Positions 414 to 30,954 of a DNA stretch of 36,767 nucleotides are shown piece after piece (position 1 is the first letter of the stretch; each line of letters begins with the position of its first letter). The position numbers and the translations under genes are program-made. Origin of the DNA: Bacteroidales bacterium (GTDB taxonomy: Bacteria; Bacteroidota; Bacteroidia; Bacteroidales; UBA932). The notes under the pieces were generated by a model. It did no database searches and was not told the DNA's origin. It was given only the letters and a program-made list of their open reading frames with translations. Where the stretch lies: the NCBI GenBank assembly GCA_024398105.1, contig JAKSJP010000026.1, positions 1-36,767 of the forward strand, written 5' to 3'.

Positions 414-1004
414 CTATCTCATGCTGAACTCGCATCCGCAGTAGAGCTGGTTGTAGAAGTCCTGCTCCCTGATGATCTCGGAGCGGCGCTGCTGAAGCCC
501 GCCCTTGCGCCAGTTCTGGGACCACCAGCGGACGTCGTCGAAGCCTTCGCACGCCTCGAAGCCGGCCTGGTCGATCTGCTCGAGGCTTTTCCATCGGGAT
601 GAGGCGAGAGTGGTCGTAAGTACATGGTACCCCTGCTCATGGGCGTACGCCGCTGCACGTCGGAGCCTGAAGCGGAAGCACTGAAGGCAGCGCGGCCCGC
701 GCTCGGGGCAGTCCTCGAGACCGGAGGCGACGGCGGTGTTCCAGGTACCATGGTCATATTCGTCCTCGACGAAGCCGACTCCGTTGGTCTCGGCCCATCG
801 GCGGCACTCGTCGCGGCGGATCGTGTATTCCTCGGACGGGTAGATGTTGGAGTTGCTGTAGAAGATGACGGGCTCGAGCCCTTCCTTGAGCATGCACTCG
901 AGGATAGCGCCGGAGCAAGGGGCGCAGCAGGCATGGAGAAGGACTTTCGTCTCTCCTTCCAGGACCTCCTTATGGAGCCAGTCGTCTGGTTTCTTCTTTC
1001 CCAT
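414..1004 (-). CDS. queH: Epoxyqueuosine reductase QueH
   Basis: QueH reduces epoxyqueuosine to queuosine in tRNA, the last step of queuosine synthesis, and is a non-homologous alternative to the cobalamin-dependent QueG. Visible family marks are HACCAPCS near residue 24 (Cys26, Cys27, Cys30), a CLQC pair followed by FRFRL, and a C-terminal YCGCEFS. These cysteines are expected to bind Fe-S and metal. Length is 196 aa from the chosen start. An in-frame ATG at 1025 exists, but a TATATTTG -7 box (1020-1013) lies between it and the ATG at 1004, so the downstream start is preferred. It is divergent from the NhaC-type gene. A GGTACCATGG word lies inside at 744-753. Confidence 0.9.
   Translation of the reverse strand: MGKKKPDDWLHKEVLEGETKVLLHACCAPCSGAILECMLKEGLEPVIFYSNSNIYPSEEYTIRRDECRRWAETNGVGFVEDEYDHGTWNTAVASGLEDCPERGPRCLQCFRFRLRRAAAYAHEQGYHVLTTTLASSRWKSLEQIDQAGFEACEGFDDVRWWSQNWRKGGLQQRRSEIIREQDFYNQLYCGCEFSMR
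744..753 (+). repeat. GGTACCATGG motif, copy 1
   Basis: Exact copy inside queH, in the orientation opposite to the gene. On the gene strand it encodes His-Gly-Thr. Confidence 0.8.
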
Positions 1005-1012
1005 TTCGCTGA

Positions 1013-1020
1013 CAAATATA
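1013..1020 (-). promoter_or_regulatory. -7 element (TATATTTG) of queH
   Basis: Read on the minus strand, 1020-1013 is TATATTTG, an exact match to the Bacteroidota -7 consensus TAnnTTTG. A start about 7 bases downstream falls at about 1006, next to the ATG at 1004, implying a leaderless or nearly leaderless mRNA. No clear TTG lies 19-21 bases upstream. Confidence 0.5.
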
Positions 1021-1041
1021 GGCAAATACGGGCAGATTCAG

Positions 1042-1049
1042 TACCTTTG
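1042..1049 (+). promoter_or_regulatory. -7 element (TACCTTTG) of the NhaC-type gene
   Basis: TACCTTTG matches TAnnTTTG exactly and ends only four bases before the ATG at 1054. The predicted transcription start coincides with the start codon, so the message would be leaderless. The -33 element is not clear. Confidence 0.45.
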
Positions 1050-1053
1050 TCCT

Positions 1054-2349
1054 ATGGAAAAGAACTTGTCAAACAAAAAGCTGAACGGATGGCTCGCACT
1101 GAGCCCTCTGCTGGTCTTCCTTGTAGTCTATCTCGTCTCGTCGCTTGTGGCGAAGGATTTCTACAAGGTGCCGGTCGCGTCGGCTTTCCTTATCGCTTCG
1201 GTCTATGCACTGGCCACGACCCGTGGTACCATGGACCAGAGAATCAGTATTTTCTCTCGCGGCGCCGGCAACAGCAACGTCCTGCTGATGATATGGATAT
1301 TCGTCCTGGCAGGAGCGTTCGCGAATACTGCGAAGGAGATCGGCTCGATCGACGCGACGGTCAACCTGACCCTGATGGTCGTGCCTGACAAGCTGCTCCT
1401 GGCGGGTCTTTTCCTGGCTGCGTGCTTTATTTCCATGGCAATAGGCACCAGCGTAGGTACCATAGTCGCCCTTGTCCCGATCGCTTCAGGCATCGCTTCT
1501 GAGATCGGGGTGCCGGTGGCAATGATGACTGCAATCATCGTAGGCGGCGCCTTCTTCGGTGACAATCTTTCCTTCATTTCCGACACTACGATCGCCGCTA
1601 CGCGTACCCAGGGCTGCTCTATGGCCGACAAGTTCAAGGCCAACATCTGGCTTGCCGGACCTGCGGCGCTGATCGTCGCGGCGCTCTACCTGTTCATGGG
1701 AGCTGACATCAGTTCAGTACCTTCGGTCGGATCTGTCAGCTGGGTGAAACTGTTTCCATATCTTGCTGTGATGGGCCTTGCCATCGCAGGTATAAACGTC
1801 ACTCTTGCGCTGTGTGCCGGCCTGGTCCTGAATGCGGCTATCGGCATGATAGGCGGCAGCCTCGGATGGATTGATTTCCTCGGTGCAATCGGCACCGGCA
1901 TCGCAGGCATGGGAGACCTTATCATCGTCACTCTGCTGGCCGGCGGAATGCTTGAGGTCATCCGTCACAACGGCGGATTGGACTTCCTTACCAAGGGCCT
2001 GTCGTCCCGGATCCATGGCAAGAGAGGCGCAGAGCTGAGCATCGCCGCTCTGGTGGGCGTGTCGAATCTCTGCACTGCCAACAATACGATCGCGATCATC
2101 ACGATGGGCGGCATCGCAAAGGATATCTCTGACCGTTTCGACCTCGATTCCCGCAAGGTGGCGAGCATTCTGGATACTTTCTCCTGCATCGTGCAGGGCA
2201 TCATCCCTTATGGTGCGCAGCTGCTGATGGCCTCCGGCCTCGCCGGCATATCTGCCGCCTCCATCATCGGCTACCTCTACTATCCGCTCGCACTCTTCAT
2301 CATCGCCTGCCTGGCGATCGTCTTCCGTTTTCCGCGGCACCTCGCGTAG
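1054..2349 (+). CDS. NhaC-family Na+/H+ antiporter
   Basis: This 431-residue polytopic inner-membrane protein begins MEKNLSNKKL and then shows about 10-12 hydrophobic segments. The conserved NhaC/Na+-antiporter signature is visible as GGAFFGDNLSFISDTTIAA in the first half and VSNLCTANNTIAI in the second. The family exchanges Na+ (or organic-acid pairs such as malate/lactate) for H+. The substrate cannot be told from sequence. The frame stays open upstream to 865, but that part overlaps queH and precedes the -7 box, so ATG 1054 is preferred. It is convergent with the dehydrogenase at 2405. A GGTACCATGG word lies at 1225 and a one-mismatch copy at 1456. Confidence 0.85.
   Translation: MEKNLSNKKLNGWLALSPLLVFLVVYLVSSLVAKDFYKVPVASAFLIASVYALATTRGTMDQRISIFSRGAGNSNVLLMIWIFVLAGAFANTAKEIGSIDATVNLTLMVVPDKLLLAGLFLAACFISMAIGTSVGTIVALVPIASGIASEIGVPVAMMTAIIVGGAFFGDNLSFISDTTIAATRTQGCSMADKFKANIWLAGPAALIVAALYLFMGADISSVPSVGSVSWVKLFPYLAVMGLAIAGINVTLALCAGLVLNAAIGMIGGSLGWIDFLGAIGTGIAGMGDLIIVTLLAGGMLEVIRHNGGLDFLTKGLSSRIHGKRGAELSIAALVGVSNLCTANNTIAIITMGGIAKDISDRFDLDSRKVASILDTFSCIVQGIIPYGAQLLMASGLAGISAASIIGYLYYPLALFIIACLAIVFRFPRHLA
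1225..1234 (+). repeat. GGTACCATGG motif, copy 2
   Basis: Exact copy inside the NhaC-type gene, read in frame as Gly-Thr-Met. Confidence 0.8.
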
Positions 2350-2404
2350 CGGTGTCGCCCCGACCCAGGACGGATGAAACGAAGGTCTGGTCGGCGAGGA
2401 GGTA

Positions 2405-3331
2405 CTACCAGCCCATCCTGATGTTGTTCGCCATCTCGTCGGCAAGACGCTGACGGGCCTCGCGGGTGGTCCATGCGATGTGAGGCGAGAAGATTATCCT
2501 GCTCATATCCTTCAGATGCATCAGAGGACTGTCGAGCGGAAGCGGTTCCTTGACGAACACATCGATCGCAGCACCTTTGATAAGGCCTTCGTCGAGAGCC
2601 CTTGCGAGATCTTCCTCCACCTCGATGCCTCCGCGTCCGGTATTGACGAGGACGGCGCTCCTCTTCATCATCTTGAACTGCTCATAGCCGATAAGACCGG
2701 CTGTCCTTTCATTATAAGGAGCATGGATGGTGATCGCGTCGGACCTGCGGAGAAGTTCCTCAAGGCCTACGCTAGGATATTCCGTACAGTGCGAAGTGCC
2801 GGAAGTCGAATAATAGATGACCTCCATGCCGAAAGCTTTTCCGATAGAAGCGACCTTCTGGCCGATGGCTCCCATGCCGACGATGCCGAGCACCTTGCCG
2901 GTGCTTTCGGTGAACGGATTGCTTGGGTCGGTGTGGATCTTACCCTGGGAATAGACGCCTGACTTGACGAAATTGTCATAGTAGAATGCGTTTCCGAGAA
3001 GGTTGAGGATGTGCATGAAAGCGCACTGTGCGACAGAGTCTGTAGAGTAACCTGCTACATTTCTTACAATTACGTTCCTTTTTCCGCATGCTATGGTATC
3101 AATATTGTTGATACCGGTTCCGGCTTCACAGACGAGCCTGAGCTTAGGTGCATGGTCAAGGAACTCGTCGTCAACCCTTACCTTGTTGACGATGGCGACT
3201 TCGCAGTCGGTGCATCTTTCGAAGGACTGCTGTCTGTCGCAGTCGGGGTAGCAGATGAACTCACCAAGTTTCTCTATCTCAGTCATCGGGGTGTCGCCCA
3301 TTGTGGCGGCGTCAAGAAATACGATTTTCAT
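2405..3331 (-). CDS. D-isomer-specific 2-hydroxyacid dehydrogenase (NAD-dependent)
   Basis: 308 residues with the family's two-domain plan. The N-terminal substrate half contains CEAGTGINNID. A Rossmann domain follows with GIVGMGAIGQ near residue 150. The catalytic set is Arg in VNTGRGG, Glu in DVFVKEP and His in SPHIAW. Enzymes of this class reduce 2-keto acids (pyruvate, glycerate, phosphoglycerate) to D-2-hydroxy acids. The closest functional guess is a glycerate or lactate-type dehydrogenase; the substrate is not resolved. It is monocistronic and divergent from the efflux operon. TATATTTG at 3364-3357 on its strand gives a promoter with a short leader. It ends ARMGW-like (NNIRMGW), a few residues shorter than many homologues. 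Confidence 0.85.
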   Translation of the reverse strand: MKIVFLDAATMGDTPMTEIEKLGEFICYPDCDRQQSFERCTDCEVAIVNKVRVDDEFLDHAPKLRLVCEAGTGINNIDTIACGKRNVIVRNVAGYSTDSVAQCAFMHILNLLGNAFYYDNFVKSGVYSQGKIHTDPSNPFTESTGKVLGIVGMGAIGQKVASIGKAFGMEVIYYSTSGTSHCTEYPSVGLEELLRRSDAITIHAPYNERTAGLIGYEQFKMMKRSAVLVNTGRGGIEVEEDLARALDEGLIKGAAIDVFVKEPLPLDSPLMHLKDMSRIIFSPHIAWTTREARQRLADEMANNIRMGW

Positions 3332-3356
3332 TGTAGCAAATGTCTGGTTTGTCCGT

Positions 3357-3364
3357 CAAATATA
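3357..3364 (-). promoter_or_regulatory. -7 element (TATATTTG) of the 2-hydroxyacid dehydrogenase
   Basis: Minus-strand TATATTTG lies about 26 bases before the ATG at 3331. A possible TTG at 3389-3387 is 22 bases away, a loose spacing. It sits back-to-back with the efflux operon promoter, so the two units share a roughly 70-bp control region. Confidence 0.5.
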
Positions 3365-3383
3365 CGAAAAACTGAAAAAACAC

Positions 3384-3413
3384 TTGCAATTACAAAAACT
3401 TGTACTACATTTG
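3384..3413 (+). promoter_or_regulatory. Promoter of the efflux operon
   Basis: TTG at 3384-3386, a 19-base spacer and TACATTTG at 3406-3413 match the Bacteroidota sigma-A type consensus. The predicted start is near 3420, inside the palindrome at 3416-3437, which suits repression by a bound regulator. The leader to the ATG at 3480 is about 60 bases. Confidence 0.75.
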
Positions 3414-3415
3414 CA

Positions 3416-3437
3416 GTGTATTAATACGCTAATACAC
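3416..3437. promoter_or_regulatory. 22-bp palindromic operator (GTGTATTA-N6-TAATACAC)
   Basis: GTGTATTA (3416-3423) and TAATACAC (3430-3437) are perfect 8-bp arms around a six-base spacer. The site directly follows the -7 box and covers the predicted transcription start. Its form resembles operators of the YtrA subfamily of GntR regulators, which often control ABC exporters. No GntR gene is in this window, so the link to that family is inference. Confidence 0.65.
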
Positions 3438-3479
3438 CCGACGGAGGTTCTGAAGGTGTGTTGAAAGAATGACAGAAAG

Positions 3480-4202
3480 ATGCTGATAGAACTGAAAAAC
3501 ATAAATAAGACCTACGACAACGGACAGCCGTTGCATGTGCTCAAGGGTATTGACCTCGAGATTGAGAGAGGCGAGTTCGTCTCTATCATGGGAGCGTCGG
3601 GCTCAGGCAAATCGACCCTTCTGAACATCCTCGGAATCCTCGACAACTATGACACCGGCGAATATTACCTGGACGGCAAACTCGTGAAAAACTTAAGTGA
3701 AAACCGCGCCGCTGAATACCGGAACACTATGATTGGCTTCATTTTCCAGTCTTACAACCTGATCAACTTCAAGACTGCAGTAGAGAATGTGGAACTCCCT
3801 CTGTTCTATCAGGGAGTCCCTAGAAAGAAAAGGCACGAGATGGCGATGGAATACCTCGACCGTCTCGGCCTCAGGGAATGGGCCGGACACTATCCTAACG
3901 AAATGTCCGGAGGACAGAAGCAGAGGGTGGCCATTGCCCGTGCACTTATCACAAGACCTCAGATCATCCTTGCGGATGAACCTACCGGTGCACTTGACTC
4001 AAAGACATCTGTAGAGATCATGAATCTTCTCAAGGAACTCAACGAGAAGGAGAACATGACCATCGTGGTCGTGACTCACGAAAGCGGAGTGGCGAATGCC
4101 ACCAACAAGATAGTCCATATCAAGGATGGACTGATCGGAGAGATAGAAACAAACATTGATCACAATGCCTCACCGTTCGGCACCGGAACCATAATGAAAT
4201 AA
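3480..4202 (+). CDS. ABC transporter ATP-binding protein (MacB/LolD type)
   Basis: A cytoplasmic ATPase of 240 aa with every functional motif: Walker A GASGSGKS (38-45), Q-loop Gln90, signature MSGGQ (142-146), Walker B IILADE (162-167) and H-loop His200. It is the size of a stand-alone MacB/LolD-type nucleotide-binding subunit. It is the first gene of the operon, followed 21 bases later by an FtsX-fold permease, another permease, a membrane fusion protein and a TolC-like factor. It should therefore power a tripartite, mechanotransmission-type exporter of drugs, peptides or lipoprotein-like substrates. The substrate cannot be assigned. Confidence 0.92.
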   Translation: MLIELKNINKTYDNGQPLHVLKGIDLEIERGEFVSIMGASGSGKSTLLNILGILDNYDTGEYYLDGKLVKNLSENRAAEYRNTMIGFIFQSYNLINFKTAVENVELPLFYQGVPRKKRHEMAMEYLDRLGLREWAGHYPNEMSGGQKQRVAIARALITRPQIILADEPTGALDSKTSVEIMNLLKELNEKENMTIVVVTHESGVANATNKIVHIKDGLIGEIETNIDHNASPFGTGTIMK

Positions 4203-4223
4203 TATTGAAAAACTTCCTTTCCG

Positions 4224-6730: not shown

Positions 6731-6749
6731 TTAAAAAGTAACAAGTTAT

Positions 6750-7826: not shown

Positions 7827-7829
7827 GCT

Positions 7830-9152
7830 ATGAGAAAGTTTTTTACAATATTGATGGCAGCGTCGGTCGGGCTCTGGGTACAGGCCCAGGAACGGCAGGT
7901 ACCATGGTCCCTTGCGGACTGTGTCGACTATGCCCTCGAGCATAATATAACGGTGCGCCAGCAGGAGATTTCGGTGGCGCAGAGGGAAATCGAGCTGAAT
8001 ACGGCCCAGAACAGCCGTCTTCCGGGTGTGAGCGGCAGCATGTCTGAGAATTTCTCGTTCGGACGAGGCCTTTCGGCGGACAATACCTATGAGAATTCGA
8101 ACTCGACTTCGACGGGTATCAGTCTCGGCGCGGATGTCCCTGTGTTCCAGGGCTTCAGGATCAGGCACAACATCGAGCTCCAGAAGCTGAACCTTGCGGC
8201 AGCGGCTGCGGATCTTGACAGGATCAAGGACAATATCAGCGTGCAGGTAGCGCAGGCATACGTGCAGATTCTCTACAATATGGAGATACTTGAGGTCGCC
8301 AAGAACCAGGTGGCTATCGATTCGCTCCAGGTCGAGAGGATCGAGGCAATGGTGGAGAACGGCAAGGCAAGCGCGGTCCAGCTCTCTCAGCAGAAGTCGG
8401 CACTCAGCCAGAGCAAGTACTCCAAGACCATGGCTCAGAACAACCTGAACCTTTCGCTGCTGGATCTTTCGCAGCTTCTTGAACTTAGCTCTCCGGAGGG
8501 CTTCGCTGTGGCAAAGCCGGATCCTTCGTCGCTCCAGCCGGGCATACTTGAGACTCCCGAGCAGGTCTATGCAGCCGCTGTCGGAGTGAAGCCTTCGATC
8601 CAGGCGGAGATGACAAGGCTCGATGCGGCTTCGACCCAGATCAGTCTTGCCAGAAGCTATCGTCTGCCTTCGATCTCTCTCAGCGGAGGTGTGGGAACTA
8701 ACTATTATACATCTTCTGTCCGTGCGGCGACGGCCTTCACCCAGCAGATCAAGAACAACTTCAGCCAGTATGTCGGTGTGAATCTGTCGGTTCCGATTTT
8801 CAGCCGTTTCTCGATCAGGAACAGCATCAGAAGCAGCCAGCTCAGCTATATGAACCAGGAACTTCAGGTCGAAAGCGCCAAGAAGAGCCTCTACAAGGAG
8901 ATCCAGCAGGCCTATGCTAACGCCGTCGCTTCGCAGGCCAAGTACATCAGCGCGATGGAAAGCGCTGCAAGTGCGCAGGAGTCGTTCGACCTCGTCCAGG
9001 CCAAGTACGAGACAGGAAAGGCCAATATAACAGAGTTCAACGAGAGCCGGAGTACCATGGTCAAGGCCCTTTCCGACCTTGCCCAGTCCCGATATGAAAG
9101 CTATTTCAACTCAAAGGTCCTGGACTTCTACAAGGGAATTCCTTTGAGGTAG
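7830..9152 (+). CDS. TolC-like outer membrane efflux protein
   Basis: 440 residues with a signal peptide (MRKFFTILMAASVGLWVQAQ) and the two-repeat outer-membrane efflux protein fold. SLADCVDYALEHNITVRQ opens the first repeat and PEQVYAAAVGVKPSIQAEM the second, each followed by long helices. It should form the trimeric outer-membrane exit duct for the exporter encoded upstream. It closes the operon, with a rho-independent terminator 47 bases after its stop. A GGTACCATGG word lies at 7898 in a Val-Pro-Trp frame, and a one-mismatch copy lies at 9051. Confidence 0.92.
   Translation: MRKFFTILMAASVGLWVQAQERQVPWSLADCVDYALEHNITVRQQEISVAQREIELNTAQNSRLPGVSGSMSENFSFGRGLSADNTYENSNSTSTGISLGADVPVFQGFRIRHNIELQKLNLAAAAADLDRIKDNISVQVAQAYVQILYNMEILEVAKNQVAIDSLQVERIEAMVENGKASAVQLSQQKSALSQSKYSKTMAQNNLNLSLLDLSQLLELSSPEGFAVAKPDPSSLQPGILETPEQVYAAAVGVKPSIQAEMTRLDAASTQISLARSYRLPSISLSGGVGTNYYTSSVRAATAFTQQIKNNFSQYVGVNLSVPIFSRFSIRNSIRSSQLSYMNQELQVESAKKSLYKEIQQAYANAVASQAKYISAMESAASAQESFDLVQAKYETGKANITEFNESRSTMVKALSDLAQSRYESYFNSKVLDFYKGIPLR
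7898..7907 (+). repeat. GGTACCATGG motif, copy 3
   Basis: Exact copy inside the TolC-like gene, read in a different frame as Val-Pro-Trp. Confidence 0.8.
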
Positions 9153-11840: not shown

Positions 11841-11914
11841 TAGCGGGAGTGGGTCACGATCCCACGACCTCCGGATTATGAATCCGACGCTCTAACCAGC
11901 TGAGCTACCCCGCC
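11841..11914 (-). tRNA. tRNA-Met (CAT anticodon)
   Basis: The 74-nt cloverleaf on the minus strand has acceptor GGCGGGG with TCCCGCT, D-stem GCTC/GAGC, anticodon loop TTCATAA (CAT) and T-stem GTGGG/CCCAC. The 3' CCA is not encoded. The CAT anticodon could also be a lysidine-modified tRNA-Ile; sequence alone does not settle this. It lies 58 bases after tRNA-Gln on the same strand. Confidence 0.9.
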
Positions 11915-11972: not shown

Positions 11973-12043
11973 TTGAGATAGAAGGACTCGAACCCTCACT
12001 GACAGAGCCAGAATCTGTAGTGCTACCATTACACCATATCTCA
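11973..12043 (-). tRNA. tRNA-Gln (CTG anticodon)
   Basis: The 71-nt cloverleaf on the minus strand has a perfect 7-bp acceptor (TGAGATA/TATCTCA), D-stem GTGT/GCAC, anticodon stem ACAGA/TCTGT with loop TTCTGGC (CTG), and T-loop TTCGAGT. CCA is not encoded. A strong promoter lies 31-62 bases upstream. Confidence 0.93.
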
Positions 12044-12729: not shown

Positions 12730-13029
12730 ATGGCATCATTCGGATGGTTTGGAGAACAGGAACACAAAGTGTTCAATTATAAGCCGATCTATTTCGATCA
12801 GGAAGAGGAAGAACGCCGCCGCAGGTTCGGCAGGGTAGATGGTACCATGAACAAGAAGGACGCAGACGGAAACGACGCCCCAGGCTCGTCAATCCAGGGT
12901 GCGTTCCGAAACGGTAACTATGCGAAGCGCAGAGGCGGTACCAAGGCCCAGTCGATAATCGGCCTGATCGGCCTCATCCTGGCGTGCATCGTGCTCTTCC
13001 AGATGGCAAAGTTCTATACACTCCTGTAG
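12730..13029 (+). CDS. Small membrane protein upstream of mutL, function unknown
   Basis: 99 residues. The first two thirds are hydrophilic and charged (MASFGWFGEQEHKVFNYKPI, then EEEERRRRFGRVDG). A single membrane helix lies near the C-terminus (about 76-94, SIIGLIGLILACIVLFQMAK). Good codon structure, a -7 box upstream and a 9-base gap to mutL support a real gene. Similar short proteins occur in other Bacteroidales, though I cannot name a characterised family. The C-terminal anchor predicts a cytoplasmic N-terminal domain. GGTACCATGA and GGTACCAAGG near-copies of the decamer lie inside it. Confidence 0.8.
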   Translation: MASFGWFGEQEHKVFNYKPIYFDQEEEERRRRFGRVDGTMNKKDADGNDAPGSSIQGAFRNGNYAKRRGGTKAQSIIGLIGLILACIVLFQMAKFYTLL

Positions 13030-13038: not shown

Positions 13039-14832
13039 ATGGATATCCGTATACTCCCCAGCAACATCGCTAATCTCATTGCCGCCGGCGAAGTCGTCCT
13101 GCGGCCTGCTTCCGTTGTGAAGGAGCTTATGGAGAATGCTGTCGATGCGGGCTCCACTCAGGTGTCAGTCGTCATCAAGGACTCCGGCAGGACTCTCATC
13201 CAGGTGATAGACAACGGATGCGGAATGGATCCGGACTCGGCTGTCGTCTGCTTCGAGAGACATGCGACTTCAAAGCTCCACAGCGCCGAGGACCTCAACA
13301 ACATCTGCACTTTCGGTTTCCGTGGCGAGGCTCTCGCTTCGATCGCGGCCGTATCGGAAGTCACATTGAGGACAAGGCGCGAGGAAGACGTCGTAGGCTG
13401 CGAGGTCGCCTTTGCTGATTCCCAGCACCTTTCGACCGTCGAGACCTCCTGCCCGACCGGCTCGAATTTCTCAGTAAGGAACCTGTTCTACAACGTGCCG
13501 GCCAGAAGGAAATTCCTCAAGTCCGACAACGTCGAGTTCAAGCATATCATCGAGGAGTTCACCAGGGTCGCCCTGACGCGTCCCGACATAGGATTCTCGC
13601 TCAACCACAACGGCAAGGACATCTATGTCCTCCGTCCAGCCAAGGGCCAGAAGTTCAGGATCCAGGACCTCCTCGGCAATTCAGCCGTCGACGCGGTGGT
13701 CGACATAGCAGCTGAGACATCGGTAGTGGACGTCTCCGGCTATGTCTGCCGTCCGGACCTTGCCCGCAAGACGACCGGCAACCAGTTCTTCTTCGTCAAC
13801 GGCAGATATTTCCGCAGCCCGTATCTCCACAAGGCAGTCATGAAGGCATACGAAGGCCTTGTAGCTGACGGCGCGGTCCCTTCGTACTTCATCTTCCTGA
13901 GCGTCGACCCTCATACGATCGACGTCAACATCCATCCGGCCAAGACGGAGATCAAGTTCGAGGACGAGTCGGTCATATTCCAGGTCATCTATGCCTGCAT
14001 ACATGAGGCTCTGGGCCGCAATTCCTTCGGAACGGCACTCGATTTCGACACCGCCGGCGCTCCGGAGATCCCTGCGTTCGGCCGTTCGTTCGACCAGTTC
14101 CATCCGACTGTCGAGGCTCCGGTCGAGGCCCTTGATCCGACCTACAATCCTTTCGACGAACCTACAGGCCAGCAGGCCTATGACCATGGTACCACGATCG
14201 CGCAGTACAGCTCATACATCAGCAGGCACGAGGACTATGGCAAGCTCTTCGAGGACCGTTCGCTCGCAAGCTCGGCGAACATAATCGTCGATGGCCGCTA
14301 TATCGTGTCGAAGGCAAGGTCGGGACTGATGGTGGTCCATATCCAGAGGGCCCGCGAGAGAGTGCTCTACGAGCGTTTCCTCAAGGCGATAACCGCTAAC
14401 GGACATGTCTCCCAGGCCGCTCTTTTCCCTGTCCAGGTGATGGTCGGCGCGCAGAACCGCCTCGTGTTCGACGAGCACAGGATGCTGCTGGAGTCGCTCG
14501 GCTTCGACATATCCGCGTTCGGCAATGACACCATAGTCGTGAACGGAGTGCCGGAAGGCTTCTCATGCGACCCTGCCAAGGTAGAGGCCCTGATGGCCGA
14601 CGTCCTGATCGCTCTCGACGAGGACCACAGCTCCCTTCCTGGGGTCATGGAATCTTCAATGGCTGAGAAGTTCGCGAGGATGGGCGCCGCTTCAGGACGG
14701 CCTCTCACATCCCAGTCCGAGGCGCAGGGCCTGATAGATTCGCTTTTCGCATGCGAGGATCCAGAACGTACCTGCAGCGGACATAAGATTATGAACATCA
14801 TCCAGGTGGATGATCTAGACAAGAAATTCTGA
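13039..14832 (+). CDS. mutL: DNA mismatch repair protein MutL
   Basis: 597 residues. The N-terminal GHKL ATPase is intact: ELMENAVDAG, DNGCGMD, GFRGEALASI, then the FFVNGRYFRS and DVNIHPAKTEIKF segments. A Pro/Asp-rich linker (about 340-415) leads to a C-terminal dimerisation domain. There the usual nuclease motif DQHA-x2-E-x4-E is replaced by HIQRARERVLYE and no CPHGRP is present, so latent endonuclease activity seems absent. It couples MutS mismatch recognition to downstream repair. The stop overlaps the rhomboid start by one base (TGATG). It carries the single reverse-oriented exact CCATGGTACC at 14184. Confidence 0.95.
   Translation: MDIRILPSNIANLIAAGEVVLRPASVVKELMENAVDAGSTQVSVVIKDSGRTLIQVIDNGCGMDPDSAVVCFERHATSKLHSAEDLNNICTFGFRGEALASIAAVSEVTLRTRREEDVVGCEVAFADSQHLSTVETSCPTGSNFSVRNLFYNVPARRKFLKSDNVEFKHIIEEFTRVALTRPDIGFSLNHNGKDIYVLRPAKGQKFRIQDLLGNSAVDAVVDIAAETSVVDVSGYVCRPDLARKTTGNQFFFVNGRYFRSPYLHKAVMKAYEGLVADGAVPSYFIFLSVDPHTIDVNIHPAKTEIKFEDESVIFQVIYACIHEALGRNSFGTALDFDTAGAPEIPAFGRSFDQFHPTVEAPVEALDPTYNPFDEPTGQQAYDHGTTIAQYSSYISRHEDYGKLFEDRSLASSANIIVDGRYIVSKARSGLMVVHIQRARERVLYERFLKAITANGHVSQAALFPVQVMVGAQNRLVFDEHRMLLESLGFDISAFGNDTIVVNGVPEGFSCDPAKVEALMADVLIALDEDHSSLPGVMESSMAEKFARMGAASGRPLTSQSEAQGLIDSLFACEDPERTCSGHKIMNIIQVDDLDKKF
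14184..14193 (-). repeat. GGTACCATGG motif, copy 4 (reverse)
   Basis: CCATGGTACC inside mutL, the only exact copy in reverse orientation. It encodes His-Gly-Thr. Confidence 0.8.
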
Positions 14833-17288: not shown

Positions 17289-18005
17289 ATGGAGATTTTC
17301 TACGCCAGTGAAGTCAGCGGCAGTCTCTGCATCCTCGATGCCGAGGAGTCTGCCCATGCCGTGAAAGTGCTCAGGCATCGCACCGGCGATGAGATATGCA
17401 CGATCGACGGAGAAGGTACCATGTACCGTTGCCGCCTTGTCGACGATTCTCCGAAAGGAGCGTCTGCGACGATCGAGGAGAGCTTTCCTCAGTGGGGCTC
17501 GCATCCGTATGACCTGACTCTCGCGGTCTGCCCGACCAAGAACAACGACCGTTTCGAGTGGTTCGCGGAGAAGGCGACCGAGGTCGGGGTGGATACTATA
17601 GTACCGGTGATCGGCGACCGTTCGGAGCGCAAGGTCTATAAGACGGAGAGGCTCCGCAAGATAGTGCTCTCGGCTACCAAGCAGTCCCTGAAGGCGAAGC
17701 TTGCCGCCGCTGAGGAGCCGATGAGCGTAAAGCAGTTCATCAAGGAAGCCCCGGCAGACGCACTCAAGCTGATCGCGTACTGTTTCGAGGGAGAGAAGGA
17801 GAAAGTCACCATCAAGTCGGCCCTTGACAGCTATGAAGGCAGCAGGATCGTGGTGATGATCGGTCCGGAAGGCGATTTCTCTCCGGAGGAGGCCCGCCTT
17901 GCGATTGAGAACGGATTCATTCCGGTAAGCCTTGGGAATTCAAGGCTGCGTACTGAGACCGCCGGCGTGACGGCAGCTGAGGCAGTCTATTTCAGATATA
18001 TGTAG
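17289..18005 (+). CDS. rsmE: 16S rRNA (uracil-1498-N3)-methyltransferase RsmE
   Basis: 238 residues, matching RsmE length. An N-terminal PUA-like part (EESAHAVKVLRHRTGDEI) is followed by a SPOUT methyltransferase domain whose SAM knot reads MIGPEGDFSPEEARLA and SLGNSRLRTETAG. KATEVGVDTIVPV is also typical. It methylates U1498 near the ribosomal decoding site. A GGTACCATGT near-copy of the decamer lies at 17415. Confidence 0.93.
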   Translation: MEIFYASEVSGSLCILDAEESAHAVKVLRHRTGDEICTIDGEGTMYRCRLVDDSPKGASATIEESFPQWGSHPYDLTLAVCPTKNNDRFEWFAEKATEVGVDTIVPVIGDRSERKVYKTERLRKIVLSATKQSLKAKLAAAEEPMSVKQFIKEAPADALKLIAYCFEGEKEKVTIKSALDSYEGSRIVVMIGPEGDFSPEEARLAIENGFIPVSLGNSRLRTETAGVTAAEAVYFRYM

Positions 18006-19907: not shown

Positions 19908-21419
19908 ATGAGAATCCTCGCTACAATCCTTCTTGCTGTCCTGATTGCCTTTCCATCTGCGGCCCAGCCTGCCAGACAGACTGAGGCTCAGGACTATATC
20001 AAGGCCATACTGGCGACTGAACCTCTTCGCTCCGCCCAGCTTGGAGTCAAGGCACAGAAAGTCAGCGGGGAAGTGATAGCCGAGATCGACAGCCATAAGA
20101 AACTTGTCCCGGCGTCCAATGTCAAGCTCATCACGACAGGATCCGCGATGGCAGAGCTTGGCGACGGCTTCCAGTTCGAGACGACCCTTGCCTACAATGG
20201 AACGATAGAAGAAGGCATCCTCAAGGGCGATCTCTATATAGTCGGTGGCGGAGACCCGACTCTTGCCTCGAAGGACTCCATCGCGGTGACAGCCGAGTCG
20301 CTTTTCTCGCAGTGGAGATCCATCCTCTCAAAGGCGGGAATCAGGAAGATCGAAGGTAACATAGTCGGAGACGGAAGATATTTCGACGGCGAAAAGGAAC
20401 TCTCGTCCTGGCTTTACGAGGACATCGGCACTTACTATGGTACCGGCGCTGACGGCCTGTGCTTCTATCGCAACATACAGGACTTCAACGTCTCACCGGG
20501 CCCATCGGTAGGATCTCCGGTCAAGGTGGCTCCAAGCTATCCGAAGGTACCATGGATGCAGTTCACCTACAACTGCTCGACAGGCATCAAGGGCAGCGGC
20601 GACAAACTCTATCTCTATACGACAGATGTCGCTCCTGTCGCTGAACTGAGAGGCACTTTCGCCGTCGACAGAAAGACCAAGAAACTCGAGACCAGCAACA
20701 AGTTCGGAGCCTATACCTGCGCGTGGATGTTCCGTGAGAATCTTGTCGCAAATGGCATCCCGGTCAGCGGAAGCGCGGCCGACATAGATGCATTGGGCAA
20801 GGTGCGCACGTCCCTTGACCCTGTGACCGTCACTGTGAAAGCCCTGGAGCAGAGCTCTCTCAAGACAATTGGCTCCACCCAGTCTCCGACACTGCGCAGG
20901 ATCGCGTTCATCACCAACCAGCGCAGCGACAATTTCTACGCAGAGGCGATGTTCAGGATGCTGGGAAAGAAGAAAAAGGGCTCGGCGGACTATGCCAAGT
21001 GCGCGGTGGCCGAGACCGATGCCCTCAGGAGGCTCAGGCTTGATACGGAGAACGGAATCTCCATCGTCGACGGCAGCGGCCTTTCCAGGAAGAATCTCGT
21101 GTCGCCTGCCTTCTTCTGCGATTTCCTCAAGGCTATGCTTGATACCCCTGTGTGCGAGTCCTTCGTGAACTCGCTCCCGCAGCCAGGGAAAGGTACTCAG
21201 GCGGGCAGGATGCAGGGAGAGGCGGCCGCTTCAAGGGTATATTACAAGAGCGGTTCCATGGATGGTGTGCGTTGCTACTCGGGCTATGTCGTCCCGTCTG
21301 ACGGAGGAAAGGAAGACACCATCGTCTTCTCGGTCATGGTGAATAATTACACCGGTCCTAGCTACAAGATACTCAGCCAGATAGACAAGCTGATCGCACT
21401 GATAGCCAAAGAGAACTAG
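19908..21419 (+). CDS. dacB: D-alanyl-D-alanine carboxypeptidase/endopeptidase (PBP4, DacB)
   Basis: 503 residues with a signal peptide (MRILATILLAVLIAFPSAAQ). It has the three class C penicillin-binding motifs: SNVK (Ser70, Lys73), SDN in NQRSDNFYAEA, and KSG in YYKSGSMDGVR. The long domain between the first two motifs is typical of PBP4. It acts in the periplasm on peptidoglycan cross-links and pentapeptide stems. It is the last gene of the mutL cluster, convergent with the deformylase homologue. It has a GGTACCATGG word at 20546 and a one-mismatch copy at 20435. Confidence 0.93.
   Translation: MRILATILLAVLIAFPSAAQPARQTEAQDYIKAILATEPLRSAQLGVKAQKVSGEVIAEIDSHKKLVPASNVKLITTGSAMAELGDGFQFETTLAYNGTIEEGILKGDLYIVGGGDPTLASKDSIAVTAESLFSQWRSILSKAGIRKIEGNIVGDGRYFDGEKELSSWLYEDIGTYYGTGADGLCFYRNIQDFNVSPGPSVGSPVKVAPSYPKVPWMQFTYNCSTGIKGSGDKLYLYTTDVAPVAELRGTFAVDRKTKKLETSNKFGAYTCAWMFRENLVANGIPVSGSAADIDALGKVRTSLDPVTVTVKALEQSSLKTIGSTQSPTLRRIAFITNQRSDNFYAEAMFRMLGKKKKGSADYAKCAVAETDALRRLRLDTENGISIVDGSGLSRKNLVSPAFFCDFLKAMLDTPVCESFVNSLPQPGKGTQAGRMQGEAAASRVYYKSGSMDGVRCYSGYVVPSDGGKEDTIVFSVMVNNYTGPSYKILSQIDKLIALIAKEN
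20546..20555 (+). repeat. GGTACCATGG motif, copy 5
   Basis: Exact copy inside dacB, read as Val-Pro-Trp. Confidence 0.8.
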
Positions 21420-22201: not shown

Positions 22202-22248
22202 TTTTTCGCCCTGCCACCCGGAAAAACATAAGGTGGTAGGGCGAAAAA
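22202..22248 (-). terminator. Terminator of the 92-aa gene
   Basis: TTTTTCGCCCTGCCACC (22202-22218) and GGTGGTAGGGCGAAAAA (22232-22248) form a 17-bp stem with one G/T mismatch and T-runs on both strands. It follows the 92-aa gene and ends 18 bases before the deformylase ATG, so it may also act as an attenuator. Confidence 0.75.
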
Positions 22249-22267
22249 TATGTCGTTAGTCCGGGAA

Positions 22268-22546
22268 TTACTTCTTGCTGATGACGATCGAGCTGAGCTT
22301 CTCGTAGAGAGCGTCAACCTTCTCGCACATCTCCTTGCGGAGACCTGCATAGTAAGCGGCCTTCTTGCCTTCTACAGACTCGTTAGCTGCATCCTTCATG
22401 TTGTTGTAGAGGTCGATAGCCTCCTCGATGACAGCTGCGACTTCGTCAGAAGCCTTATTAGGGTTGATGGCGAGGAAGAGAGTGCAATCGTCTACGAATT
22501 CGCCTACAAGGTATTCAACGTCTTTCTTGAAATCTCTGAGATTCAT
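22268..22546 (-). CDS. Small acidic helical protein, function unknown
   Basis: 92 residues, no signal peptide or membrane segment, predicted almost fully helical (DEVAAVIEEAIDLYNNMKDAANESVEGKKAAYYAGL). It resembles conserved Bacteroidales proteins of unknown function. Support for a real gene is strong: a full promoter at 22600-22570, a clean terminator at 22248-22202, and codon use biased like well-expressed genes. A cytosolic role is likely; nothing more can be said. Confidence 0.85.
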   Translation of the reverse strand: MNLRDFKKDVEYLVGEFVDDCTLFLAINPNKASDEVAAVIEEAIDLYNNMKDAANESVEGKKAAYYAGLRKEMCEKVDALYEKLSSIVISKK

Positions 22547-22569
22547 ATTGTGGTATTTTAAATGTTGCT

Positions 22570-22600
22570 CTAAGATAGGGATTTTTCTAAAGAAACCAAA
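22570..22600 (-). promoter_or_regulatory. Promoter of the 92-aa gene
   Basis: Minus-strand TTTG (22600-22597), a 19-base spacer and TATCTTAG (22577-22570) match the consensus at all but one base. The predicted start is about 22563, 17 bases before the ATG at 22546. Confidence 0.65.
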
Positions 22601-22614
22601 GGTTGAAGAGGAAA

Positions 22615-23496
22615 TCAGTCAAAAATTCTTCGTGCGAACAGGAAGTTGCTGAAATTCTCATAGCAGTCCGGGTCTCCTTCACGGATCGAGTTCACCCTGA
22701 CGAGCTGCGACGCATGGACCATATGGGCGTCGCCGATATATATTCCGACATGGCTTACCCTTCCGGTCTCATGGTTCCCGAAGAACAGCAGGTCACCAGG
22801 TTCGAGTTCCGCCAGGTCCACGGGCTTTCCCAGCCTGGCCTGTTGCGAGGCGTTCCTTGGCAGTACGCGTCCGTTCATCAGGGCGGCGTAGCTTGTCAGT
22901 CCGCTGCAGTCGAATCCCTTAGGGGAGTTTCCGCCCCAAAGGTATGGGACGCCTACGTACTTCAGGGCCTCTTTGACGACAGCCGCTCCGGTGCAGGCCT
23001 TGCCCGATGCCCATGCTGCCTCGCTCACGAGGTCCTTCTTCGACACCCAGCCCTCGCGCCCGCCCGGCGTCGAGACAGGGTACATGCCGTGGCGTACGGT
23101 ACCATGGTCCTTGTGCCCGTTGATGAGGATGTCGCCTCTGACGAGGTCGGAGACGGGGGTGGACCTGGTGCTTGGCTTGCTGTAGATGACTGAGGTCCTG
23201 GCGGTGCAGACCAGTTTGCCGGCACTTGGGAAAGCAGCCTCGCCGGAGTCCAGGCGGCTGAGAGCCATTTCGTTGACCCATGCCTTGTAGCCGTCTGGAG
23301 TGCTGACCTTCACCCAGTAGCGGTCGGTCTCGAGGATCTCGACTACCGTCCCCATCAGAGCCTGGGTGCCCATCTCGGCGGCGTAGTCAGGCTCCTCCCG
23401 CAGGTTGGCTACGGATATGTCGACCACTGCCTTGCCCTGTGCAAGGACTGAGAGGGATATCGTGATGAGGCCTATGGCCAGTATCAGTTTCTTCAT
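22615..23496 (-). CDS. Secreted SH3-NlpC/P60 cysteine peptidase
   Basis: 293 residues starting MKKLILAIGL with a signal peptide cleaved after SVLAQ. Two bacterial SH3-like domains (about 25-82 and 95-160) precede an NlpC/P60 domain with Cys197 (FDCSGLTSYAA), His249 (RVSHVGIYIG) and His261 (HMVHAS). This layout matches gamma-D-glutamyl-diamino-acid endopeptidases that trim peptidoglycan stem peptides. The frame is open 29 codons further upstream to 23583, but that part overlaps the radical SAM gene and lacks a signal, so ATG 23496 is chosen. It follows the radical SAM gene by 34 bases. A GGTACCATGG word lies at 23098. Confidence 0.92.
   Translation of the reverse strand: MKKLILAIGLITISLSVLAQGKAVVDISVANLREEPDYAAEMGTQALMGTVVEILETDRYWVKVSTPDGYKAWVNEMALSRLDSGEAAFPSAGKLVCTARTSVIYSKPSTRSTPVSDLVRGDILINGHKDHGTVRHGMYPVSTPGGREGWVSKKDLVSEAAWASGKACTGAAVVKEALKYVGVPYLWGGNSPKGFDCSGLTSYAALMNGRVLPRNASQQARLGKPVDLAELEPGDLLFFGNHETGRVSHVGIYIGDAHMVHASQLVRVNSIREGDPDCYENFSNFLFARRIFD
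23098..23107 (+). repeat. GGTACCATGG motif, copy 6
   Basis: Exact copy inside the minus-strand NlpC/P60 gene, opposite to the gene direction. The gene strand encodes His-Gly-Thr. Confidence 0.8.
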
Positions 23497-23530
23497 TGCT
23501 TTGTCTGTTATCGTGTCTGTGCCGGACGGC

Positions 23531-26048
<2,518 letters not shown>

Positions 26049-26894: not shown

Positions 26895-28267
26895 TGATGA
26901 AGAAATTTCTGACAATAGCAGCCATGTTCCTCATGGCTCTTACAGCAAGCGCACAGAGATATCCGGACGGACTTATCGACAAGACTGTAGCGGTCATCGG
27001 TAACGAGATGATCACGATCAGTACTCTCGAGCAGGAGATCCAGTACATGAGATCCCAAGGCATAGCGTCTGATGCAAACATGAGATGCAATATCCTCGAG
27101 AGCGTCCTTGAGTCGAAGCTTTTCCTCATGCAGGCAAGGATCGACTCCTTGACTGTCAACAACGATATGGTGTCGCAGAGCGTCACCCAGCGTGTCGACC
27201 AGGCCAAGACGACTCTCGGAGGCGATGAGGAAGTGGAGAAGTACTTCGGAAAGAGCCTCTACAAGCTCCGTCAGGAGTGGACAAAGCAGCTCGAGGAGAA
27301 CAACCTTACCCAGCAGATGCAGCAGGAGATCGCAGGAAGGGTTCCTGAGACCACCCCTTACGATGTGAAGGTATTCCTCGCCCAGACCGATCCGGAGGAC
27401 CTCCCTATGGTCCCTGTCCGCTATCAGCTCAGTCAGATCGGAATCTATCCTGACCGTGAGGCCGCAAACCTCGCAGTGAAGGAGAAGCTCCTCGCAATCC
27501 GCGAGAGAATCATCAACGGCGAGAGATTCGCTACCCTCGCACGTATCTATTCTGAGGATCCGGGCAGCGCAAGAAAGGGCGGTGAGCTCGGTATGGCATC
27601 CAAGTCAATCTTCTGGCCGGTGTTCTCAGACGCAGCCATGTCGCTCAAACCAGGTGTCATCTCACAGATCGTAGAGACCCCTGACGGTTTCCACCTTATC
27701 GAAGTCCTTGAGAAGAAGGGTGACATGTTCAACGCAAGGCACATCCTCATGAAGCCTGAGTACACGGTCGACGACCGCGAGAAGGCTTTCCATACGCTTG
27801 ACAGCCTCCGTCACCAGATCATGGTGGATTCTCTTTCCTTCACTCAGGCGGCGCGTTTCTTCTCAGAGGATCCTGCGACAAGGACCAATGGCGGTCAGAT
27901 GGCTGATCCTAACACAGGATCGTCATATTTCGAGATCGACCAGCTGAAGCCTCAGGACTACAACGCTATCAAGGATCTCCAGGAAGGTGAGATATCTGAA
28001 TCATTCGAGTCTCTCGACAATGAAGGCAGAAGTGGAAACACCATATACAAGATAGTGAAGGTGGACAAGATCATCCCATCGCATCCTGCTTCCTTCGAGC
28101 ACGACTACAGCCTGCTTGCCGATGAGGCCCGGGCAAAGGCTGCCATGGATGAGATTGACAAGTTCCTGGAGGAGAAGATCGCATCCACCCATATCACCAT
28201 CGATCCTCTCTACAAGGACTGCGACTTCGCACGTGAGTCCTGGAAGACTAAGGTTATAAAGGAGTAA
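26894..28267 (+). CDS. surA: SurA-like peptidyl-prolyl isomerase (two parvulin domains)
   Basis: 457 residues with a signal peptide (MMKKFLTIAAMFLMALTASAQ). An N-terminal chaperone region (about 28-170) is followed by two parvulin-type domains: the first around FATLARIYSEDPGSARKGGELGMASK, the second from ARHILMKPEY through FSEDPATRTNGGQMADP. A C-terminal helix returns to the chaperone module. It escorts unfolded outer-membrane proteins across the periplasm. ATG 26894 overlaps the previous stop (TAATG); ATG 26897 is an equal alternative. It overlaps the next gene by one base too. Confidence 0.9.
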   Translation: MMKKFLTIAAMFLMALTASAQRYPDGLIDKTVAVIGNEMITISTLEQEIQYMRSQGIASDANMRCNILESVLESKLFLMQARIDSLTVNNDMVSQSVTQRVDQAKTTLGGDEEVEKYFGKSLYKLRQEWTKQLEENNLTQQMQQEIAGRVPETTPYDVKVFLAQTDPEDLPMVPVRYQLSQIGIYPDREAANLAVKEKLLAIRERIINGERFATLARIYSEDPGSARKGGELGMASKSIFWPVFSDAAMSLKPGVISQIVETPDGFHLIEVLEKKGDMFNARHILMKPEYTVDDREKAFHTLDSLRHQIMVDSLSFTQAARFFSEDPATRTNGGQMADPNTGSSYFEIDQLKPQDYNAIKDLQEGEISESFESLDNEGRSGNTIYKIVKVDKIIPSHPASFEHDYSLLADEARAKAAMDEIDKFLEEKIASTHITIDPLYKDCDFARESWKTKVIKE

Positions 28268-30954
28268 TGTCATTCTGGAGGAATCTGATATTATCGGCAG
28301 TTCTTATCGTCCTGTCGGTTCCGTCCTTCGCACAGAAGAAAACTGAGCAGGTTGACTCTTTGGTCAATCTGCTCAGTGCTCAGTCTATGGAGCTCATAGA
28401 GAAGCACGGAGTCAACTACAGGAAGGTCACAGGACCTGCCCGCTTCCTCCACAACAATACATATCTCATCTGTGACACCGCTCTGTGGAATGTCAACAGA
28501 GAGGAGATCGAGGCCTGGGGCCATGTGAAGATCCTTCAGAACGAGACCGTCCTCACCAGCGACAAGCTGACTTACATCATCGAGGAGGACCTGGCAAAGT
28601 TCAGGGGAACGGTCGTTCAGCTGGAAGACAAGGACCACAATACCCTCAGGACGAAGCATCTTGACTACAATACCAAGGACAGTGTTGCCGTGTTCCGTAA
28701 CGGAGCATCCATGAGGGACAAGGACGGACAGATCATCGAGAGTCTCAACGGTACCTATGATTCCAAGATAAAGCTCTTTACATTCACTGACAATGTGAAC
28801 ATGTTCACTGACAGCATCTTTGTGAAGACTTCCAGGATCGAGTACGACACAAACCGCGATTTCGCGGTTTTCGGCAGGAGTACCGACGCGTGGAAGGACG
28901 ATGACATGCTGTCTGCTGAGGCAGGATGGTACGACAGGAGGAAGGAGACTTTCTTCTTCCGTGACAAAGTCCATATCATGACGCAGGATCAGGAGGCGTG
29001 GTCGGATTCTCTCTTCTTCAAGAGGAATACCATGGACGTGGAGATGCTTGGCAATGTCCAGCTTACTGATACGACAAGGAATGCTTCTGCCGTGGCAGGA
29101 AGGCTTGAGTATATTGATTCTCTCGGTCAGGTGACATTGACCAGGAATCCTGCTATAGTCGGCGTGACGGATTCGACGGGCACTGCCAGGGATACTGTGT
29201 ATCTTGGCGGCAATGTCCTCAGGATGCGTTCGATAATGAAGTTTGAGATTGATTCTCTTGAATATACCTATGCGGCCAAGCGTCTTGAGGATATTAATTC
29301 GGACCCTGTCGGCGCGTATAGGAAGTCTGCCTACGAGGAGGCGCGCAAGGCTGCAGAGGATGCCAAGAAGAACGATGCCGCCTATAAGGCCGAGCAGGAG
29401 GCGAAGGCCAAGCGCGATGCCCGTGCCCAGGAAGAGGCTCAGCGTACCCAGACCGAGCCTCAGTCGGAACCGCCTTCTGAAGAGCTCAGTCCAGACCCTT
29501 CCGAGGGCGAAGCCCCGATAGAAGAGCCTCCGGTAGAAGGCGAAGCTCCGGTAGAAGAGTCCCCGGTCGAAGGCGAATCTCCTGTCGAGGCAGATGAACC
29601 GATCCCGGATCCGGAGCCGGAACCGGCACCAGACCCTGAACCAGCACCAGAGCCGGATCCGGAACCAGAGCCGGAACCGGAACCTGAGCCTATGGTTCCA
29701 GAGGCGCCTAAGGATTCGACCAAGGTCGCTTTCCTTGAGGCGATAGGAAAGGTGCGTCTCTACAGGGACGATTTCCAGATGCGTTGCGATTCGCTCAAGT
29801 TCAATGAGCTTGACTCTCTCGTGCGTCTGCACAAGGAACCTATCGTCTGGAACGAGGGTAACCGCCAGTACGCTTCCGACAGTATATATGTGTCATTCGG
29901 TCAGAATAATCTCGACAAGGCCTATCTGATGTCAAATGCGTTTGTGACTGTCGAGGAGGCTCCTGACTGCTATGACCAGATACGAAGCACGGAGATGCTT
30001 GCTTTCTTTGACGAGGAGGGCCTGCTGAGGCGTTTCGATGCGCTAGGCGGGGCCGATGCAATATTCTATCTGCAGGAGGACAGTACTTTCGCGACTGTCA
30101 ACAGAAGCCAGTCGAAATTGCTCAGTGCGACCTTCCGCGAAGGAGAGCTTGAAGGCGTGGACTATTACCAGGATCCGAAGAACAATGCTTTCCCTCTGGC
30201 CCAGATGGCCAAGGACGACAGGGTGCTCAAGGGCTTCAACTGGCAGCCTGATATACGTCCGGCAGGACCTGAGGACATTACGGACTATGTCCCTAGGGCT
30301 ACGCAGAGGAAGATGTATGCGTCACGTCCACGTGCGAAGTTCCATCAGACAGACATCTATTACCCTGGCTATATGTCAGGCGTCTACAAGAAGATTGAGG
30401 AGAATGAGCGTAAGGCTCAGGAAAGGCGTGATGCCCAGGAGCGAGCGAAGAGTGATGCCGAGGTCGCTGAGGCTGAAAGCCCTTCTGGAGACGTCCCTGC
30501 AGATGAGGACGCAACTGCTCCAGGGGAGAACGGTGATGACGTCAGCATTGACGTGGATGTTCCGGATACGGACGGTTCCGATGGTGAGGCCCTGGATCAG
30601 GGTGGCGGCGACGGCGCAGGTACCATGGTCTCGGATTCGACTGCCGTTTCGGTTCCTGAACTCTCCGCGAAGGAGCTTCTGAAGAAGCAGAGAGAGGACG
30701 AGAGACTTGCGAAGCAGGCTGAAAGGGAGGCTAAGTGGGCCCGTCTGGACAGTCTGGATGCGGCCAAGGCCGCTGCGAAGGCGGAGAAGCTGGCCGAGAA
30801 GGAACGCCAGAAGAAACTGAAAGTGCTTAAGGCACGCAGCCGTCAGGAAGAAAAAGACGCTGCCCGCCTTGAGAAATATCGTCTCAGATACGAGCAGCGT
30901 AAGGAAAAGAAATCCAAGGAGGAAAAGCCTGTACTTCCGCTTAAGCAAGATTGA
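28267..30954 (+). CDS. OstA-like (LptA/LptD N-domain) envelope protein with Pro/Glu-rich insert
   Basis: 895 residues with a signal peptide (MSFWRNLILSAVLIVLSVPSFAQ). Residues about 45-340 show repeating beta-jelly-roll segments of the OstA/LptA type (NREEIEAWGHVKILQNETVLTSDKL). A low-complexity block rich in Pro and Glu (about 399-481) interrupts the protein. A second OstA-like part follows (LEAIGKVRLYRDDFQMRCDSLKFNELDS), then an acidic region and a basic Lys/Arg/Glu-rich coiled-coil tail. It probably acts in lipopolysaccharide transport to the outer membrane with the chaperones encoded upstream. No LptD barrel was seen. Its end overlaps tdh tail-to-tail by 14 bases. Confidence 0.8.
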   Translation: MSFWRNLILSAVLIVLSVPSFAQKKTEQVDSLVNLLSAQSMELIEKHGVNYRKVTGPARFLHNNTYLICDTALWNVNREEIEAWGHVKILQNETVLTSDKLTYIIEEDLAKFRGTVVQLEDKDHNTLRTKHLDYNTKDSVAVFRNGASMRDKDGQIIESLNGTYDSKIKLFTFTDNVNMFTDSIFVKTSRIEYDTNRDFAVFGRSTDAWKDDDMLSAEAGWYDRRKETFFFRDKVHIMTQDQEAWSDSLFFKRNTMDVEMLGNVQLTDTTRNASAVAGRLEYIDSLGQVTLTRNPAIVGVTDSTGTARDTVYLGGNVLRMRSIMKFEIDSLEYTYAAKRLEDINSDPVGAYRKSAYEEARKAAEDAKKNDAAYKAEQEAKAKRDARAQEEAQRTQTEPQSEPPSEELSPDPSEGEAPIEEPPVEGEAPVEESPVEGESPVEADEPIPDPEPEPAPDPEPAPEPDPEPEPEPEPEPMVPEAPKDSTKVAFLEAIGKVRLYRDDFQMRCDSLKFNELDSLVRLHKEPIVWNEGNRQYASDSIYVSFGQNNLDKAYLMSNAFVTVEEAPDCYDQIRSTEMLAFFDEEGLLRRFDALGGADAIFYLQEDSTFATVNRSQSKLLSATFREGELEGVDYYQDPKNNAFPLAQMAKDDRVLKGFNWQPDIRPAGPEDITDYVPRATQRKMYASRPRAKFHQTDIYYPGYMSGVYKKIEENERKAQERRDAQERAKSDAEVAEAESPSGDVPADEDATAPGENGDDVSIDVDVPDTDGSDGEALDQGGGDGAGTMVSDSTAVSVPELSAKELLKKQREDERLAKQAEREAKWARLDSLDAAKAAAKAEKLAEKERQKKLKVLKARSRQEEKDAARLEKYRLRYEQRKEKKSKEEKPVLPLKQD
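30619..30628 (+). repeat. GGTACCATGG motif, copy 7
   Basis: Exact copy inside the low-complexity tail of the OstA-like gene, read as Gly-Thr-Met. The surrounding protein sequence is disordered, so there is no obvious protein-level reason for it. Confidence 0.8.

Follow-up and report, generated by a model that had tools for sequence, protein, structure and literature searches.

The 36,767-nucleotide stretch of Bacteroidales DNA studied here (the window) carries ordinary genes, including those for MutL, RadA/Sms, IMP dehydrogenase, PBP4, a TolC-like protein, peptidase T and others among the 20 open reading frames (ORFs) scanned, and is dotted with the decamer GGTACCATGG, which a preliminary description had singled out as highly iterated. 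All seven exact copies listed there are present. The first, at 744..753 on the plus strand, is followed by TC and completes the full word GGTACCATGGTC. The plus-strand copies at 1225..1234 (followed by AC) and 30619..30628 (followed by TC) read Gly-Thr-Met in an NhaC-like gene (865-2349; its family match is below the cut-off) and in ORF 28267-30954 (weak LptA/YhbN-type match, below cut-off), respectively. Val-Pro-Trp is read at two further plus-strand copies, 7898..7907 (followed by TC) in the TolC-like gene (7830-9152, likewise below the cut-off for its family) and 20546..20555 in the PBP4 gene (19908-21419); the latter continues with AT, without the final C of the extended word GGTACCATGRWC defined below. 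The remaining two, both followed by TC and both read as His-Gly-Thr, lie antisense in their genes, at 14184..14193 (minus strand) in the MutL gene (13039-14832) and at 23098..23107 (plus strand) in the minus-strand ORF 22615-23583. The variant GGTACCATGT, with the core GGTACCATG, occurs at 622..631 (minus strand) and at 17415..17424 (plus strand; Gly-Thr-Met in ORF 17289-18005), and GGTACCATGA, followed by AC, at 12841..12850 (plus strand; Gly-Thr-Met in ORF 12730-13029).

Nine one-mismatch copies had been reported. Their actual number is 13, with those missed at 1221, 6174 and 7902 (all minus strand) and 21252, and the site given as 12947 starts at 12937; the other listed positions are correct. 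The window contains 20 matches with at most one mismatch, compared to a mean of 1.33 and a maximum of 5 in 100 dinucleotide shuffles. The remark that about half of all GGTACC sites are extended agrees with our count, as ten of the 20 continue as GGTACCATG. At the genome-wide rate, 3.8 exact copies are expected per window length, and the probability of at least seven is 0.09.

The excess extends beyond the window: the genome (G000; 2,429,203 bases in 48 contigs, 91.76% complete) contains 250 exact copies of GGTACCATGG (120 forward, 130 reverse), 393 of GGTACCATGR (198 forward, 195 reverse) and 248 of GGTACCATGRWC (128/120 by strand). The decamer is thus over-represented as described, but as a unit it was drawn too short and too strict: the underlying word is GGTACCATGR, with an extension to GGTACCATGRWC and a looser last base (R, not G). 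We analyzed 805,827 bases (806 kb), about one third of the genome, composed of the window and 40 stretches of at most 20 kb. Sample 1 is the window-containing 437-kb set, and sample 2 consists of independent further stretches. A third-order Markov model predicts 5.5 copies of GGTACCATGR and 0.77 of GGTACCATGRWC in the 806 kb, where 145 and 101 are observed, and 1.35 of GGTACCATGG in sample 1, where 55 are observed. In 577 called genes (695 kb), 110 copies of GGTACCATGR compare to 12.2 in 100 synonymous-codon shuffles (standard deviation 3.5, maximum 22), and 74 copies of GGTACCATGRWC to 4.9 (standard deviation 2.3, maximum 11). Both comparisons had been proposed in the preliminary description, and for this third of the genome the excess is far above either expectation. 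A reversed-word control is uninformative for GGTACCATGG, which is the same sequence read backwards.

Site density is approximately one per 6 kb. At the 102 GGTACCATG sites of sample 1, the following base is G in 55, A in 38, T in 6 and C in 3 cases, and the two positions thereafter are T or A in 89 and C in 78 of the 102. This RWC extension is present in every class with more than five sites, i.e., sense frame 0, antisense frames 0 and 2, and intergenic sites. Being common to coding frames and intergenic DNA, it is a DNA-level feature and not a codon effect.

Among the 158 GGTACCATG sites in the 806 kb, 120 lie inside called genes; our gene caller, which relies on ORF length and codon usage, is crude, and hence coding and intergenic labels carry some error. 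All six frames occur, with 53 in-gene sites read as Gly-Thr-Met, 35 as His-Gly-Thr, 18 in antisense frame 2 and 14 in the other three. The earlier argument that codon or protein constraint is insufficient therefore holds: frame spread together with the codon shuffles, which stay far below the observed counts, rules this constraint out. Frames are used unevenly, which agrees with a word that settles at places where the protein can accept change. In sum, GGTACCATGRWC(C) is a genome-wide DNA-level word, occurring on both strands and mostly inside genes.

Gene-strand bias is absent (sense/antisense 42/36 in sample 1 and 21/21 in sample 2), and GC skew reveals no clear polarity in the 806 kb (89 versus 69, binomial p 0.13). 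Chi and the FtsK-orienting polar sequences (KOPS) are likewise over-represented asymmetric words, but they are strand-biased along replichores, whereas the G000 word is split 198 to 195 between forward and reverse. With no clear bias by assembly strand, gene strand or GC skew, a strand-polar signal of this kind was rejected. Counts per 20 kb are near random (mean 3.4, variance 4.9, p 0.04; 36 stretches, overlapping pairs collapsed), and no regional domain is visible in the site density of these 36 stretches from an assembly in 48 pieces.

Among the genomes searched, the word is in excess in G000 only. GGTACCATGR occurs 0 to 28 times each in 399 other genomes of the same genus, drawn from a larger group, versus 393 times in G000, and GGTACCATGRWC at most 9 times in 392 other genomes of the order, versus 248. 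Exact copies of GGTACCATGG number 0 to 9 each, and 119 together, in 36 same-genus genomes, compared to 250 in G000; in 24 genomes of other families, up to 17 are found. A genus-wide word is thereby ruled out for the 399 other same-genus genomes searched. Judged by one protein, G158 is the nearest relative sampled, with 54% of it shared; the true sister species is therefore not among the genomes compared.

We also searched 13 relatives for dialect words of their own (samples of 53-590 kb, the top six dispersed 9-mers each). None was found with comparable excess and spread, at a resolution where a sparser word could be missed; an 80-kb subset of G000 contains 20 copies of its word versus 0.9 expected, in 16 one-kb bins. 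The strongest words among the relatives are of three kinds: promoter-like ones (CAAAGATAG in G158, 26 versus 2.1), rare ones restricted to few bins (AACGTTTAA in G120, 8 versus 0.13, in 5 bins) and the top word of G016, GAGGGTGCA, which is part of a 74-bp tandem-repeat family. G158 also displays a mild dispersed excess of CAGGCTGTC. Dispersed 74-bp tandem arrays with TGAGGGTGCA are located on L118, L120 and L122 of G016, which has 122 copies across its genome, while nine other genomes searched have 1-8.

Best tblastn hits with at least 50% identity, taken as orthologues without a tree, cover 90 of the 320 sample 1 genes and make 14 sites alignable. The word occupies poorly conserved residues: 19 of 44 residues under it are identical, compared to 23128 of 33243 elsewhere (Fisher p 0.0004, from a small sample and distant relatives). 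Twelve of the 14 sites differ from the relatives by substitution, which argues against a motif-sized insertion or a mobile element; at the other two, in variable regions, the alignment has gaps of 6 and 7 residues, each exceeding the word in size, and an insertion may have occurred there.

By what process short words fill genomes is a long-standing question, argued mostly from a few bacterial groups, with uptake drive, methylation-biased repair and selection for protein binding as the candidates; the G000 word represents an independent case in another phylum. Since the searched relatives are without it, its gain can be polarised. Our preferred reading, which we hold tentatively, is an uptake-like word kept by biased DNA exchange. 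A putative sequence-specific DNA-binding protein of the species would recognise the word, DNA carrying it would be favoured on exchange between cells (by uptake and/or recombination), and alleles with the word would keep winning. The same molecular drive is usually proposed for uptake sequences. The word resembles the DNA uptake sequence (DUS) of the Neisseriaceae and the uptake signal sequence (USS) of the Pasteurellaceae (AAGTGCGGT) in being sharp, about ten bases long and present in hundreds of copies on both strands, with in-gene sites in several frames, tolerant residues and inverted pairs. It differs in belonging to the Bacteroidales, in being sparser and dyad-leaning, and in terminator pairs that are not repeated in sample 2.

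Stated in a form open to both exchange and chromosome marking, it is quite possible, if somewhat short of an even chance, that G000 uses a private code: a dyad-leaning word of 12-13 bases that a dedicated binding protein, without methylation, has driven to hundreds of copies. Its gain would have taken place inside a single genus, the other examined members of which do not have it, and to our knowledge no such word has been described before in the phylum. A literature search, whose coverage leaves most subscription papers outside, returned nothing on uptake sequences in Bacteroidetes, Bacteroidota or Bacteroides, on highly iterated palindromes (HIPs) in Bacteroid-, or on motifs or methylation in Cryptobacteroides. 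The decamer GGTACCATGG turns up in 652 papers; among the matches listed, titles and opening lines of abstracts point to no genomic word, and several look like reports of cloning, in which KpnI-NcoI primers would account for the sequence.

Several points weigh against an uptake-like word. We know of no uptake specificity in Bacteroidota; classic uptake words are denser than one per 6 kb and biased to core genes, and a weak dyad, as described below, is better suited to a dimeric protein than to any uptake receptor known. Judged from one stretch each, gene content does not fit the core-gene bias: the site-free stretch L024 has genes which we judge as core (including Omp85, an MgsA-type ATPase and QueA; six proteins scanned), while the site-rich L018 has metabolic and transport genes (glycosidase, alcohol dehydrogenase, cation ATPase and permease; part of its genes scanned). 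For the site-free L211, one family (GDSL lipase) was assigned among four proteins scanned. In favour of such a word, G000 has a ComEC-type domain, the only competence gene sought, whose matched stretch contains one flagged TAG; the domain also matched in 10 of 14 control genomes, however, and being so widespread it proves little. The domain is located in a short ORF of 370 aa (L191:1132-2244), which carries GGTACCATGGAC at L191:1390-1401.

The last point against an uptake-like word concerns gaps between genes. In sample 1, nine sites (about six separate places) lie in gaps of at most 400 bp, three of them convergent, six co-directional and none divergent, and when five intergenic sites were folded, four gave stable hairpins compared to shuffled sequences (z -2.6 to -4.1), while the fifth did not. 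Eight control words have 0 of 84 matches in gaps of this size. The hairpin pattern resembles the one reported for the USS in H. influenzae (PMC5217627). However, this 3'-end signature was not reproduced in sample 2, with no site in 10 kb of gaps, and the pooled samples yield nine short-gap sites versus 4.5 expected from gap length. For this reason, the signature is not counted as evidence, and H. influenzae-like terminator pairs, strong in sample 1 only, are not claimed.

A close second to the uptake-like reading, although taken by itself rather unlikely, is a dimeric DNA-binding protein of the nucleoid, segregation or division-site type (cf. Noc, SlmA and MatP), which would bind GGWYCATGGTACCATGRWCC at hundreds of sites selected for chromosome organisation. 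Both readings need a putative recognition protein, and the evidence is not decisive between them. The dimeric protein is favoured by the bases in front of the word: CAT precedes 30 of the 158 GGTACCATG sites (background 1.9%, p 6e-21) and CAG precedes 17. With GGWYCATGGTACCATGRWCC as the ideal dyad, sample 1 has 7, 3 and 4 centres scoring 18, 19 and 20 of 20, respectively, where the third-order Markov model expects 0.0 each, and 20 centres scoring 17-19 versus 0.8 expected. Inverted overlapping pairs, which also count in favour of the uptake-like reading, are enriched in the 806 kb, with 15 CATGGTACCATG sites and 5 GGTACCATGGTACC sites (the latter counted as 10 on both strands), and the 15 full CATGGTACCATG dyads account for 30 of the 158 GGTACCATG matches. 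Most sites carry just one good half of the dyad. Still, a lean towards the left half also appears in the 74 non-overlapping sites of sample 1 (C at -3 in 33, A at -2 in 30 and G at -6 in 33), which somewhat favours a dimeric binder.

This lean is missing in antisense frame 2 (3, 2 and 2 of 12), and thus codon effects may contribute. Moreover, an asymmetric word with palindromic parts could yield both kinds of overlap under drive, so that the dyad alone is no proof of a dimeric binder. The near-random spread without a visible domain in the 48-piece assembly likewise speaks against it. The sites of Noc, SlmA and MatP share with the G000 word the dyad and the many copies, but known chromosome-organising site sets are smaller and regional, whereas this word has several hundred copies, reveals no regional restriction and is in excess in one genome only among the relatives searched. 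A phage-borne dyad was rejected; 13 viral contigs with CATGGTACCATGRWCC have one match each, which looks like chance.

Far less probable is a methylation-linked word comparable to HIP1 (GCGATCGC), which an orphan methyltransferase and biased mismatch repair would create and keep. Such an origin agrees with a highly iterated, genome-wide, lineage-specific and palindrome-built word, as HIP1 and the alternate cyanobacterial HIPs are: the G000 word contains GGTACC and, if its last base is G, CCATGG. In contrast to a HIP1-type word, however, GGTACCATGRWC is longer and asymmetric, hence not a palindrome, and with twelve to thirteen specified positions lacking symmetry it is long for a methyltransferase target. 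The profiles PF01555, PF00145, PF02086 and PF02384 gave no match at E<=0.001 in G000, a search limited to these four families and to a genome 91.76% complete; in 14 control genomes, they matched in 11, 10, 4 and 13. A word made by methylation is therefore unlikely, and while the claim of a DNA-level signal is supported, its comparison to HIP1 or a modification site is weakened. The missing matches hint at a novel recognition system and help to separate two standing explanations for words of this type. According to PMC4390886, HIP words are generally accompanied by a methyltransferase for the sequence, and a one-genome word resembles the alternate HIPs of exceptional cyanobacteria.

About equally improbable is a relict, i.e., a recent drive that has now stopped, leaving the word to decay neutrally. 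The word is sharp, its 27 one-mismatch variants totalling 213 versus 118 expected in the 806 kb. As decay would have it, these variants do exceed expectation, with transitions somewhat above transversions (excess 56 versus 39). Yet the 145 exact copies of GGTACCATGR still exceed the one-mismatch excess of about 95; decay would thus have to be recent.

An ordinary cause, be it codon bias, an amino-acid motif, a repeat element or a cloning or adapter artefact (KpnI-NcoI), is hardly credible: although Gly-Thr-Met (GGT ACC ATG) is the commonest frame, codon shuffles give 12 copies of GGTACCATGR against 110, the same RWC extension is found at antisense and intergenic sites, flanks vary between sites with called reading frames continuing through them, and same-genus genomes are without the excess.

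The window has some further features. Its IMP dehydrogenase has its nearest named records in uncultured Bacteroidales, including Candidatus Cryptobacteroides merdavium, in a search that may omit very near records. Two tRNA genes are located on the minus strand (11841-11914 and 11973-12043), and an 18-bp tandem repeat (CCGGAACCAGAGCCGGAA) at 29605-29690 within ORF 28267-30954 probably encodes a Pro/Glu-rich stretch.

Other repeats are found elsewhere in G000. The palindrome GACCTAGGTC forms arrays, often with a spacing of 25 bp, at L013:14486-14808 and L025:5290-5408, in gaps next to genes for formyltransferase/YebC and glutamine-cyclotransferase/TonB-receptor; the 806 kb contain 13 such sites versus about 0.1 expected. 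Arrays of an approximately 51-bp repeat with ACGTAGGTGG are present at L194:38-1852, L206:32-348, L207:86 and L208:5285-5457, several of them at contig ends, and L202, L203 and L206 have a distinct 72-bp array with GGGTCGGCAC. Finally, words of the TATATTTG type are enriched in the 437-kb sample (51 versus 6.9), in which most TAnnTTTG sites (137 of 219) are intergenic, a placement that we take to be the expected one for a Bacteroidetes promoter word.

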